The notes beneath the pieces are model-generated. The model searched no databases and was not told where the DNA came from. It saw only the letters and a program-made list of their open reading frames with translations. A stretch of 64,000 nucleotides of DNA. Source: an uncultured Alphaproteobacteria bacterium. GTDB taxonomy: Bacteria > Pseudomonadota > Alphaproteobacteria > HIMB59 > GCA-002718135. A program made the position numbers and the translations under genes. This document shows, in pieces, positions 20,015-54,801 of the stretch. Position 1 is the stretch's first letter. Each line of letters starts with the position of its first letter. The DNA lies in the NCBI GenBank assembly GCA_902577905.1, contig CACHAQ010000001.1, positions 62,001 through 126,000 on the forward strand, in the 5' to 3' direction.

Positions 20015-20115
20015 AACCGTAAGTAATTCAATATTATTTTGTATATGCAAAAAATGCATATCAAATAAGTATGAAATTCATTTTTAAAAATAAATAAATT
20101 TTATTATTAAAATTT

Positions 20116-20172
20116 CATCGTTCATTTTGAATAATTCAAAACGGAAGTAAACGAAAGTTGAAGGAACGCATG
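20116..20172 (+). promoter_or_regulatory. glnA-type glutamine riboswitch aptamer 1
   Basis: catCGTTCatTTTGAATaATTCAAAacGGAAGTAaacgaaagttGAAGGAACGcatg; P1 CGTTC/GAACG, perfect TTTTGAAT/ATTCAAAA stem. Confidence 0.8.
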
Positions 20173-20182
20173 CAAGTTATTA

Positions 20183-20238
20183 AATCGTTCAATCTGTATT
20201 AACAGATCGGAAGTAGGCTAAAGCTGAAGGAACGCGGA
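20183..20238 (+). promoter_or_regulatory. glnA-type glutamine riboswitch aptamer 2
   Basis: aatCGTTCaATCTGTattaACAGATCGGAAGTAGGCtaaaGCTGAAGGAACGCgg matches the recalled glnA motif core. Confidence 0.85.
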
Positions 20239-20253
20239 TCTTATTATTAATTT

Positions 20254-20305
20254 CCATAGCTAAGCATGAATTATAACGGATAAGAAAGGTTTGTTATAAC
20301 TATGG
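20254..20305 (+). promoter_or_regulatory. candidate expression-platform hairpin with start codon in the 3' arm
   Basis: CCATAG-11nt-TTATAAC ... GTTATAACTATGG. Confidence 0.5.
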
Positions 20306-20364
20306 TTAAAAAGTTAGATAATAAAAAGATATTCTATTCAAATCTCAAGAGGTTTACTCCTTGA
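20302..20364 (+). CDS. candidate 20-aa leader peptide
   Basis: ATG...TGA reads MVKKLDNKKIFYSNLKRFTP; stop overlaps an ATG of the next gene. Confidence 0.35.
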   Translation: MVKKLDNKKIFYSNLKRFTP

Positions 20365-21770
20365 TGTTTAATGAAATGTATCAATCTGAATCAGTTATAA
20401 GAAATCATTATAACAATATTAATGATTGGTTAGATCAAATGACTTCAAAAGTTATTCTTGAAAAAAATGCTGAAGCTGAAACTCATTTTAGAAATATTGG
20501 AATTACATTTTCTACAAATAACGAAACTGCAAGAGAAAGAATTATTCCGTTTGATTTAATTCCAAGGATATTTACCTATACTGAATGGTTAAGATTAGAA
20601 AGAGGAGTAATCCAAAGAGCTAAAGCACTTAATGCGTTTCTTGCTGATATTTATAATCAAGGTGAAATAATAAAAGCTAATATAATTCCTAAAGAAATTA
20701 TTTACAAAAAAAAATCTTTTGAACCTTCAATGTTTGGTTTTTCTCCTCCTAGAGATATCTATAGTCCTATAATCGGTATTGATTTAGTAAGAACAGGTCC
20801 CAATGATTATTTTGTTTTAGAAGATAATTGTCGAACACCAAGTGGTGTTTCATACATGCTAGAAAATAGAGAAATAATGATGCGGATGTTTCCTGATTTA
20901 TTTCATAACAACAGAGTAACACCAATAGATGACTACCCAACAAGACTTTTGCAAACTTTGATGAGTTTAGCTCCTATTAAATGTGAAAATCCAGAACCAG
21001 TATGTGTATTACTTACACCTGGTCCTTTAAATAGCGCTTATTACGAACATAGTTTTTTATCAGATCAAATGGGTATTGAAATGGTTGAATCAACAGATTT
21101 ATTTGTTGAAGGAAAATATCTTTACATGAAAACAGTTGATGGTCCAAAAAGAGTAGATGTTGTTTATAGAAGAATAGATGACGATTTTTTAGATCCTCTA
21201 TGTTTTAATCCTCAATCTGTAATTGGTATTCCAGGTATTATGGATGTTTATAGAACAGGTGGTGTCAATATCTGTTCAGCTCCTGGAGCAGGCATAGCTG
21301 ATGACAAGGCAATTTATATTTATGTACCTGAGATGATCAAATTTTATTTAGGTGAACAACCAATCTTAGATAATGTTGAAACGTGGAATTGCGAAAAGGA
21401 ACAAGAATTAAAATATGTTTTAGATAATATAAATGAACTTGTCGTAAAAGAGGTTGATGGATCTGGAGGTTATGGGATGTTAATAGGTCCAAAATCTTCT
21501 AAATCCTCTATAGATGAATTTAAAACTAAACTCTCAACAAATCCAAAAGGATATATAGCTCAACCTTTACTTGATCTTTCATTTTCACCAACACTAATCA
21601 AAAATCAAGTTGAGGGAAGAAGAGTAGATTTACGTCCATTTTGTTTAATTGGAGAGCAAGCTCAATTAAGTTCTGGTGGTTTAACTAGAGTTGCAATGAA
21701 TGAAGGTTCGTTTGTTGTAAATTCTAGCCAAGGAGGCGGTGTGAAAGACACATGGGTTTTGGCTGAATGA
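20361..21770 (+). CDS. circularly permuted type 2 ATP-grasp protein
   Basis: DYFVLEDNCRTPSGVSYMLENR, DVVYRRIDDDFLDPL, VVKEVDGSGGYGM, DLRPFCLIG. Confidence 0.95.
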   Translation: MMFNEMYQSESVIRNHYNNINDWLDQMTSKVILEKNAEAETHFRNIGITFSTNNETARERIIPFDLIPRIFTYTEWLRLERGVIQRAKALNAFLADIYNQGEIIKANIIPKEIIYKKKSFEPSMFGFSPPRDIYSPIIGIDLVRTGPNDYFVLEDNCRTPSGVSYMLENREIMMRMFPDLFHNNRVTPIDDYPTRLLQTLMSLAPIKCENPEPVCVLLTPGPLNSAYYEHSFLSDQMGIEMVESTDLFVEGKYLYMKTVDGPKRVDVVYRRIDDDFLDPLCFNPQSVIGIPGIMDVYRTGGVNICSAPGAGIADDKAIYIYVPEMIKFYLGEQPILDNVETWNCEKEQELKYVLDNINELVVKEVDGSGGYGMLIGPKSSKSSIDEFKTKLSTNPKGYIAQPLLDLSFSPTLIKNQVEGRRVDLRPFCLIGEQAQLSSGGLTRVAMNEGSFVVNSSQGGGVKDTWVLAE

Positions 21771-21779
21771 GGAATAAAA

Positions 21780-22715
21780 ATGTTAAGTAGAACTGCTGAA
21801 TATCTATATTGGATAAGCCGCTATATGGAGCGAGCAGAAACGACAGCCAGGCTTTTGGATGTTGGTTATAGAATGTCTCTTTTTCCAAATCCAAGTGGTT
21901 ATAATAATGAATGGGAATCAGTTTTATCCGCTGCTGGCGCAATTGAAGGATATAAAAATAAATATGATACAATTGAACAAAGAAATGTTGAAGATTATTT
22001 ATTTTTTGATGAAAGTAATCCTTCATCTGTTTACAATTGCATTCTTAATGCAAGAAATAACGCATTAGTTGTCAGAACTTCCTTTACCCCTGAGTCTTGG
22101 TTAGCAATTAATAAAACTTATCAAGAGATATTAAACTTAAAAGAAAAAAAATTTTCTAAATCTGATTTACCTGATCTTACAGAGTGGACCATAGAACAAG
22201 TAAACTTATTTAGAGGATCGTTAAGTTCATTACTTAGAAATGATGGTTATAATTTTCTTTTTCTTGGTTTATTTATTGAAAGGGCTGATAATTCTGCCAG
22301 ATTATTAGATGTAAAGTATTTTGTTTTATTACCTAAGCCTCAATATGTAGGTGGTAATATCGATAATATGCAATGGAGTATATTGCTTCGCTCTTTATCT
22401 TCTTTTAGAGCTTTTAGATGGGCATACGATGGTAATATTACCGCAACTAAAATTGCTGACTTTTTAGTTTTAAATAATAATTGCCCTAGATCTTTAAGTT
22501 TTTGTATTCAGAATATTGTTAAACATTTAACTAACCTAACATGCAGTCCAGAAAAAGTTGGAAGAATTTATAATAATTTAAAAGATCTAAATACCAAAAT
22601 TCAAGAAGAAAAAATAGAAACTATTGTTGAATATGGACTTCATCAATTTGTAACACAATTTATTAGAAAAATATCTAGTGTTGATAACGAAATACATAAG
22701 GAGTTTTTTAATTAA
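21780..22715 (+). CDS. alpha-E domain protein
   Basis: MLSRTAEYLYWISRYMERAETTARLLDV. Confidence 0.95.
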   Translation: MLSRTAEYLYWISRYMERAETTARLLDVGYRMSLFPNPSGYNNEWESVLSAAGAIEGYKNKYDTIEQRNVEDYLFFDESNPSSVYNCILNARNNALVVRTSFTPESWLAINKTYQEILNLKEKKFSKSDLPDLTEWTIEQVNLFRGSLSSLLRNDGYNFLFLGLFIERADNSARLLDVKYFVLLPKPQYVGGNIDNMQWSILLRSLSSFRAFRWAYDGNITATKIADFLVLNNNCPRSLSFCIQNIVKHLTNLTCSPEKVGRIYNNLKDLNTKIQEEKIETIVEYGLHQFVTQFIRKISSVDNEIHKEFFN

Positions 22716-22716
22716 T

Positions 22717-23556
22717 ATGGAACTAATAATCGAACACACAACTAAATATGAATATAAAAATCCAGTTGCGGGATTAATTCAAACCACTAAACTGCATCCT
22801 TCAGAATATAATGGTCTTAAAATTCTAGAGTGGAATGTCCATAACGACTCAGCCAAAAAATCAAAAATTTATCAGGATGGTGAAGCTAATAATATTCAAA
22901 GTTTTACAAATACAAACAAAGTGAAAAAAATACAATTTACAGTTCTTGGAAAAGTTGAAACATTTGATACAAAAGGAATTTACCAGAGCGCTTCTGATAA
23001 AATAGATCCATTAGTCTACTTAAGAGAATCAAATTTAACAAAAGCAAATGTAGATATAAAAAATTTAGCTATTGAAGCTAAAAATGGTTTTAATGAAAAC
23101 GAAAATCTAGAAACATCTCATAATTTGATGAATCTAGTAGCTGAAAAAATTGAATACAAACCTTTAACGACAAATAATCAAACAACAGCTATTGAAGCAT
23201 TTAATCAGAAAAAAGGAGTCTGCCAGGATCAAGCTCATATTATGATTGCCGCAGCAAAAACTTTAGGAATACCTGCTAGATACGTTAATGGTTATATGCA
23301 TAACAATTCCCATTCTTCAGAATTTCAATCTACACATGCGTGGGCAGAATTTTATATAAATGATTTAGGTTGGGTCGGATTTGATCCCACAAATAAGTGC
23401 AGTCCAGATGAAAGATACGTACGTGTTTCTTGTGGACTTGATGCAAGTTATGCATCGCCTATTAAAGGTGTTTTTTATGGGAATATTAATAATGATTCTG
23501 TGATAGAAAATTTAGATATTCATGTACAAACATTAGAAAATAATTCTCAACAATAA
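22717..23556 (+). CDS. transglutaminase-like cysteine protease family protein
   Basis: KKGVCQDQAHIMIAAAKTLGIPARYVNGY, HAWAEFYINDLGWVGFDPTN; start revised from 22678 to ATG 22717 (MELIIEHTTKYEY). Confidence 0.95.
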   Translation: MELIIEHTTKYEYKNPVAGLIQTTKLHPSEYNGLKILEWNVHNDSAKKSKIYQDGEANNIQSFTNTNKVKKIQFTVLGKVETFDTKGIYQSASDKIDPLVYLRESNLTKANVDIKNLAIEAKNGFNENENLETSHNLMNLVAEKIEYKPLTTNNQTTAIEAFNQKKGVCQDQAHIMIAAAKTLGIPARYVNGYMHNNSHSSEFQSTHAWAEFYINDLGWVGFDPTNKCSPDERYVRVSCGLDASYASPIKGVFYGNINNDSVIENLDIHVQTLENNSQQ

Positions 23557-23611: not shown

Positions 23612-23971
23612 ATGTTTCAAAATAAAAAACAACTTCAGTATTTATGGATTTTTAAACCTGAACTAAATGATATTGCAAAAAGAATTGCAGAAGATCATAC
23701 AAAATGGATGAATGAAACACATACAAAAGAGGGTGATAAAGCACTTCTAATGTTAAATTGGTCTATAGGTCCCGAATTCAAAGATGGAAATAAAACAGGT
23801 AATTTGTCTCTAATCTTAACTGAGGTTTATGAAAATCAAGCAGGAATAGATAATCATTTTGATCTAGCAAAAAACAATGGTGCTACTTTTAGAGATGATT
23901 TTAATGATTTTGAAAGCAAATGTGAAAATTTAGTAAAAATCAATAGTTCTGATATTATCCATTCAATGTAG
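23612..23971 (+). CDS. small uncharacterised protein
   Basis: 119-aa ORF with strong aaaggagga ribosome-binding site. Confidence 0.55.
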   Translation: MFQNKKQLQYLWIFKPELNDIAKRIAEDHTKWMNETHTKEGDKALLMLNWSIGPEFKDGNKTGNLSLILTEVYENQAGIDNHFDLAKNNGATFRDDFNDFESKCENLVKINSSDIIHSM

Positions 23972-53095: not shown

Positions 53096-54801
53096 TGAAA
53101 AAAATAAAGAGAGAAGCTTATGCCGATATGTATGGGCCAACAACTGGTGATAAAGTTAGACTTGCTGATACTGAATTATTTATTGAAGTGGAAAAAGATT
53201 TAACAACTTATGGAGAAGAAGTAAAATTTGGTGGTGGAAAAGTTATTCGAGATGGAATGGGACAATCTCAAGTATCTCGTAAAGATGGTGCTGTTGATAC
53301 AGTTATAACAAACGCCTTAATAGTAGATGTAAATGGAATTTATAAAGCTGATATTGGTCTTAAGGATGGATTAATTTATGAAATTGGAAAAGCAGGTAAT
53401 CCAGATACACAACCCAATGTAAATATTATTATTGGACCTGGAACAGAAATAATTGCTGGTGAAGGCAAAATTATAACAGCTGGTGGATTTGACAGTCATA
53501 TACATTTTATTTGTCCTCAGCAAATAGATGATGCACTTCATTCAGGTATTACAACTATGTTGGGAGGTGGAACTGGTCCTGCACACGGCACTTTAGCGAC
53601 TACAGTTACACCTGGGCCATGGCATATAGAAAAAATGATACAATCAGCTGATGCATTTTCTATGAACTTAGCTTTTGCAGGAAAAGGAAATAGTTCTTTA
53701 CCTAAAGCTCTTGAAGAACAAGTAATAGCCGGTGCATCTTCACTAAAATTACATGAAGATTGGGGTACAACTCCCGCAGCAATAGATAATTGTTTAAATG
53801 TAGCAGATGATCATGACATTCAAGTAATGATTCATACGGATACATTAAATGAAAGTGGATTTGTTGAGAGTACTATTAAAGCGATTAATGGAAGAACAAT
53901 TCACGCTTTTCATACTGAAGGAGCTGGTGGAGGTCATGCACCTGATATTATAAAAGTTTGTGGTGAACAATATGTTATTCCTTCTTCTACTAACCCAACA
54001 AGACCCTATACAGTTAATACAGTTGAAGAACATTTAGATATGTTAATGGTTTGCCATCACTTGGATAAATCAATACCTGAAGATGTTGCTTTTGCTGAAA
54101 GTCGTATTCGAAAAGAAACAATTGCAGCAGAAGATATACTGCATGACATGGGTGCTTTTTCAATTATTGCTTCTGATAGTCAAGCCATGGGTCGTGTTGG
54201 TGAGGTTATTATTAGAACATGGCAAACAGCACATAAAATGAAAGTTCAACGTGGACAATTAAATGAAGAGCAGGGTGATAACGACAATGTAAGAGTTAAA
54301 AGATACATCGCTAAATATACAATTAATCCAGCAATAGCTCATGGTATTTCAGATCATATTGGAAGTATCGAAAAAAATAAACGTGCTGATATTGTTATTT
54401 GGGACACTCCTTTTTTTGGTGTTAAACCTGAAATGGTATTACAAGGAGGAAGTATAGCTTGTGCACAAATGGGTGATCCTAATGCATCTATACCAACACC
54501 ACAACCAGTGTACTCAAGGCCAATGTTTTCTTCTTTTGGAAAATCATTAGAAAAATCTACTGTCACTTTTGTAAGTAAAGTTTCATTAGATAAAGATTCA
54601 TTTAAAAATTCTGGAGTAAATAAATCTCTATTACCTGTTAAAAATATTAGAAAAATTTCTAAAAAAGATATGATATTAAATGATTATTGTCCAAAAATAG
54701 AAGTTAATCCAGAAACCTATGAAGTTTTAGCAGATGGTGAGTTAATAACTTGTGAACCAGCTAAAACATTACCTTTGGCTCAACGTTATTTCATGTATTA
54801 A
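53095..54801 (+). CDS. ureC: urease alpha subunit
   Basis: [53 protein letters not shown]. Confidence 0.99.

Follow-up and report, generated by a model that had tools for sequence, protein, structure and literature searches.

The window, i.e., the whole 64,000-nucleotide stretch of DNA analyzed here, contains on its forward strand an operon of three enzyme genes, whose assignment in a preliminary description of this DNA was borne out by Pfam searches. The first enzyme gene (positions 20364 to 21770) encodes a circularly permuted ATP-grasp protein (CP_ATPgrasp_2, 4.4e-153), the second (21780 to 22715) an Alpha-E protein (9.5e-87), and the third (22717 to 23556) a transglutaminase-like protein featuring Transglut_core and Bact_transglu_N domains (1.2e-24 and 3.4e-12, respectively), whose core Cys, His, and Asp are visible in the GVCQD, HAWAE, and DPT motifs of the translation. 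A 119-residue open reading frame (ORF) located past the operon (23612 to 23971) has no Pfam or NCBIfam match; it is present at loci L143 and L220 and unmatched at L145 and L221. Elsewhere in the window, an Rfam match to 5_ureB_sRNA (reverse strand, 53248 to 53527, 90.4 bits) lies antisense inside a 568-residue plus-strand ORF that reads as a urease alpha subunit, and it is probably conserved coding sequence rather than a small RNA.

Upstream of the three genes, cmscan identified two matches to the glutamine riboswitch family RF01739 on the forward strand, aptamer 1 at 20117 to 20172 (66.0 bits, E = 2.1e-12) and aptamer 2 at 20184 to 20238 (64.2 bits, E = 6.8e-12). Both are full-length and exceed the gathering score of 35 bits, and the three-stem junction of the family, with conserved CGGAAGUA and GAAGGAACG segments, is present. 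The two complete aptamers lie in one leader on the same strand, separated by a short linker of 11 nt, and thus form a tandem; among 51 doublets, the linkers between the RF01739 matches measure 10 to 13 nt. In 34 representative doublets, the pairs of stems P2 and P3 of aptamer 1 are kept despite two-sided changes (7 to 20 sequences per pair), and P1 is invariant according to RNAalifold. P2 and P3 of aptamer 2 covary as well; its P1 was not picked by RNAalifold, yet it is part of the Rfam match. The tandem glnA-type glutamine riboswitches of the preliminary description, which had proposed an Infernal scan with RF01739 as a check, were thus recovered at the same place and on the same strand, and its observation that the variable stems differ between the copies yet keep pairing applies to both copies. 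Class membership by covariance model confirms the window element as a tandem glutamine-I riboswitch.

The inter-aptamer linker (20169 to 20180, forward strand) comprises the segments CATGC (20169 to 20173) and AGTTAT (20175 to 20180), and a downstream element, CATAGCTAAGCATG (20255 to 20268, forward strand), is common to all glutamine doublets of the host family. In the 93 of 93 doublets having both, the consensus reads GCRTGC-A(1-3)-AGTTAT for the linker and CATARCTA..GCATG for the element following aptamer 2. The linker is conserved in 95 of 95 doublets examined, the element in 93 of 93 with sequence present, and each of them in none of eight singlets. The two segments can form an 11-bp helix, termed P0, with the linker as its 5′ side and the element as its 3′ side. 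In 78 distinct leaders, 853 of 858 base-pair cells of P0 are paired, 62 of them as G-U. Internal loops measure 3x3 in 19 of 20 glnA leaders and 2x2 in amt leaders, and ATP-grasp leaders have loops of either 1x2 or 2x2, the loop sizes of the two strands matching by gene class. RNAalifold, executed without a supplied structure, predicted five P0 pairs, with the GCATG half of the element paired; it also let the element's pyrimidines pair with the GGA in aptamer 2, a predicted contact that is possibly an alternative state. Double compensatory changes in P0 are absent from the 78 leaders, in which changes are one-sided (G-U) and accompanied by matching loop sizes. Given the common descent of the doublets and the lack of any two-sided change, the support for P0 is good but short of covariation proof. 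At the level of sequence, P0 is a new detail, a conserved helix predicted to link the inter-aptamer linker to the element following aptamer 2. On average, the element has little tendency to pair with the start region downstream (z from about -0.5 to -2.3, depending on gene class), for which reason we only infer such a contact.

In ATP-grasp leaders, the element is followed by a hairpin whose loop holds a Shine-Dalgarno-like motif and by the ATG of a leader ORF. In the window, this hairpin (20271 to 20299, forward strand) carries the Shine-Dalgarno sequence of the leader ORF (GAAAGG, 20284 to 20289) in its loop; the stem differs by clade yet can pair (TTATAAC/GTTATAA in the window, AATAACAAA/TTTGTTATT in L053). 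The leader ORF itself (20302 to 20364, forward strand) has 20 codons (MVKKLDNKKIFYSNLKRFTP), and its stop codon overlaps the ATP-grasp start (TGATG). Such an ORF is found in 52 of 52 leaders, with 16 to 25 codons and an end between -6 and +8 nt relative to the ATP-grasp start. Unlike the ATP-grasp gene (variation of 0.010, 0.004, and 0.098 at the three codon positions), the leader ORF varies equally at all three (0.165, 0.145, and 0.181), indicating that the frame is conserved and the peptide is not; a conserved leader peptide was ruled out by this lack of codon-position bias. A Shine-Dalgarno-like motif precedes the leader ORF in all 52 leaders and the ATP-grasp start in 30 of them. The simplest reading is that the leader ORF is translationally coupled to the ATP-grasp gene, i.e., ribosomes would enter at the short leader ORF and then move on to the ATP-grasp start. 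A terminator that could serve as expression platform was not found in the window leader; terminator-like hairpins occur in some glnA leaders (e.g., L183). The switch would be expected to act mainly on translation.

The genome harboring the window (1.45 Mb, 87% complete) contains eight RF01739 matches, which constitute four doublets and no singlets. Its closest named relatives are single-cell genomes of uncultured Alphaproteobacteria, perhaps marine bacteria of the HIMB59/AEGEAN-169 type. Besides the one described, a doublet is located between glnB and glnA (L010) and another before the marine-type ammonium transporter gene amtB1 (L009); the fourth lies 2 kb beyond at a contig end, with amtB2 past that end, as read in the relative L067. 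RF01739 is present in 108 of 111 genomes of the family and the ATP-grasp gene in 58, all of the host genus. ATP-grasp loci were examined in the window and in 55 of the 57 other cases, the remaining two genes running off contig starts. Upstream of the operon, the doublet is complete in 52 loci, represented by one copy before the contig end in three, and cut off before the leader in one; hence it is present at every operon of the genus with upstream DNA available. The earlier claim that the riboswitch precedes this operon, together with the suggested survey of other marine genomes, thereby gained broad support, extended by a second family (see below). Judged from their leaders, the operon, glnA, and the two amtB genes would share one glutamine-sensing regulon. 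Singlet aptamers of the host family (L149, L157, L179, L181, L182, L188, L190, and L193), which have neither linker nor element, precede another ORF (MTLEELN... or similar), apparently a further ammonium transporter.

A palindrome, ATGCA-N5-TGCAT (20045 to 20059), is positioned 72 to 75 nt upstream of aptamer 1 and represents a candidate protein-binding site. It occurs at the same distance in 48 of 52 ATP-grasp leaders and 12 of 12 amtB1 leaders, and is absent from glnA (0 of 20), amtB2 (0 of 6), and singlet (0 of 8) leaders. The median identity of ATP-grasp leaders is 0.82 to 0.84 to amt leaders versus 0.78 to most glnA leaders. The closer relationship to amt leaders and the palindrome in common with amtB1 suggest that the ATP-grasp operon acquired its control region as a copy from an amtB locus. 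A phage origin of the doublet was also considered and set aside; the exact linker pattern had no match in viral contigs.

Across 395 evenly sampled alphaproteobacterial genomes, RF01739 matches were confined to the host genus and to four members of one further family, where a single aptamer lies directly upstream of the ATP-grasp gene. Among 32 genomes of this second family, 23 have RF01739 and the identical 23 have the ATP-grasp gene, the two being adjacent in 23 of 23 and the aptamer in single copy; the probability of this coincidence by chance is 3.6e-8 if the genomes are independent. This co-occurrence makes the link between riboswitch and operon a recurrent one and argues more strongly than any other result for a functional association. 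Additional RF01739 matches occur in two of the 23 genomes, in one case before an amtB-like gene. In the other (G558), matches of 50 bits on three contigs (L254, L255, and L256) precede the same ORF (MAIGRISGSVLKSNLTRNGV...), which is unrelated to nitrogen genes; phage DNA may account for these contigs of the assembly. A sister family was considered as a control for the operon, but its ATP-grasp protein is 48% identical and encoded divergently to Anbu, with Alpha-E and transglutaminase genes absent nearby, so that this locus is not the orthologous operon. At L218 and L219 of this sister family, the ATP-grasp gene and an Anbu-like gene of the proteasome fold are arranged divergently, and RF01739 was not found in 40 genomes. 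SAR11 bacteria possess the same three genes (ATP-grasp 73 to 77% identical), and no glutamine riboswitch was found at the leader of their operon. In SAR11 loci L118 to L146, TGTCARWTTGGCAA is present upstream of the ATP-grasp start in 24 of 27 loci, some 50 to 60 nt before it in the upstream sequences inspected, and it is possibly a protein-binding site replacing the riboswitch. Searches of the SAR11 and alphaproteobacterial literature yielded nothing specific.

The order of the ATP-grasp, Alpha-E, and transglutaminase-like genes is that of the first three genes of the Anbu operon (PMC6376114, PMC5666114, PMC7801951), and in the Rhodobacterales loci L147 and L148 all four Anbu-operon genes are present in order. 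In the host genus, the sole PF00227 match is HslV-sized and located away from the operon (genomes up to 96% complete), and no Anbu match was found at the L220 or L221 operons. By its gene content, the window operon is therefore an Anbu-type operon without Anbu. In Pseudomonas putida, the operon is induced by nitrogen limitation, probably under control of NtrB/NtrC (PMC7801951). A sigma-54 gene was found in none of 17 genomes of the host order, which rules out NtrC/sigma-54 control there. A regulator found here resembles NtrX, with a score below the curated cut-off; a search for literature on NtrX motifs returned nothing. The operon of the literature has Anbu, whereas that of the window lacks it, is preceded by an RNA control element, and belongs to a lineage devoid of sigma-54, and we infer that the RNA switch does here the job that NtrC and sigma-54 may do elsewhere. 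Most likely, the operon is a peptide-ligating and amide-cleaving module aiding nitrogen recovery or rearrangement in starvation.

From the riboswitch, the preliminary description had derived a "glutamine-linked amide/peptide-bond system." According to such a reading, the operon makes or breaks glutamine amides and the riboswitch provides product or substrate feedback, in keeping with amide bonds being the target of transglutaminase-like and ATP-grasp proteins and with glutamine being the ligand. However, glnA and amtB carry the same sensor, so that glutamine serves here as a nitrogen signal; moreover, transglutaminase-like folds include proteases. We regard this explanation as very improbable. 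The same doublets on glnA and amtB, together with the induction in P. putida (PMC7801951), lead us to conclude that the riboswitch reports nitrogen status and is silent on the substrate, and the earlier claim is not supported.

Regarding the direction of the switch, the second family is the more explicit. Its aptamers lie close to the ATG; at L246 and L251, the 3′ strand of the aptamer, GAAGGA, itself serves as the Shine-Dalgarno sequence, with 3 nt between aptamer and ATG. Structure sampling gave a less accessible start region with P1 formed in 10 of 10 leaders showing both states, and several leaders feature a Shine-Dalgarno hairpin. We read this arrangement as an OFF switch acting on translation. 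For the doublet leaders, equilibrium sampling, which leaves out ligand, tertiary structure, and co-transcriptional folding, gave a less accessible start with both aptamers formed in only 2 of 40 ATP-grasp leaders, a more accessible start with P0 in 74 of 82 doublet leaders, and a P0 frequency in ATP-grasp leaders of 0.96 with both aptamers folded versus 0.39. Taken alone, the opening of the start with P0 points to an ON switch, in which glutamine binding would favor P0 and free the start, so that high glutamine would raise expression of the operon, glnA, and amtB; the glutamine riboswitches proven in cyanobacteria, among them those of gifB and of Prochlorococcus, are ON switches (PMC6316151). 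Yet low glutamine is when glnA and amtB are needed, the same operon is wired OFF in the second family and starvation-induced in P. putida (PMC7801951), and the folding has the blind spots just named. We therefore consider an ON switch improbable and prefer OFF, with good confidence, for the doublets. With plentiful glutamine, both aptamers would bind and expression would fall; when nitrogen is short, the RNA would refold and the operon would be made. Probably, judging from the sequence comparisons, the tandem glutamine-I riboswitch thus places a nitrogen-starvation operon in the glnA/amtB regulon, turned off when glutamine is plentiful.

If the linker pairs with the element and thereby encloses aptamer 2, both aptamers and the expression platform could switch together; the element would then alternate among three pairing partners, namely the linker, the start region, and the 3′ strand of aptamer 2. 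A tentative, possible rather than probable, reading is that the doublet constitutes one composite sensor, a module copied from an ammonium-transporter leader and replacing NtrC/sigma-54 control. Alternatively, each doublet may represent two independent one-ligand switches in series, with P0 being incidental; the 157 doublets and four triplets of tandem glutamine riboswitches covered by PMC9481103 are classed there as pseudo-cooperative, and covariation in P0 is scarce. This alternative appears doubtful given the fixed linker length, the confinement of linker and element to doublets, and the agreement of the loop sizes of the two P0 strands by gene class (3x3 in glnA, 2x2 in amt leaders). A conserved inter-aptamer helix, as assumed for the composite sensor, would offer doublets a way to act as one unit.

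The function of the operon is a long-standing question, and a glutamine sensor in two families, which in one of them is also found on glnA and amtB, tells when the operon comes into play and lends itself to a simple test. The doublets before the operon, glnA, and ammonium transporter genes in these tiny marine bacteria suggest that it is on when nitrogen is short. As for known systems, the glutamine-I riboswitch (glnA RNA) is located upstream of nitrogen-assimilation genes (PMC2864571); the window aptamers resemble it in sequence and structure, with nitrogen-assimilation genes downstream in both. The window differs by its target, as the ATP-grasp/Alpha-E/transglutaminase operon is not among the published targets in the available parts of these sources and was not found as a target in the literature examined, an earlier mention being possible. 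Unlike the cyanobacterial ON switches of PMC6316151, the doublets described here are preferably read as OFF switches. According to the same source, it was environmental samples of uncultured strains that linked glutamine riboswitches to GS, PII, and ammonium transporters; tandem glutamine riboswitches in glnA and amtB leaders, till now seen mainly in environmental DNA, are here assigned to single-cell genomes of one group. The tandem riboswitches of PMC9481103 share with the window two successive aptamers per leader; a fixed linker pairing with an element after aptamer 2, as predicted for the present doublets, is not described in the available part of that source. Overall, the riboswitch class and its tandem form are known, and what is new are the predicted inter-aptamer helix and the leader ORF, alongside a recurrent link to this operon in two families.
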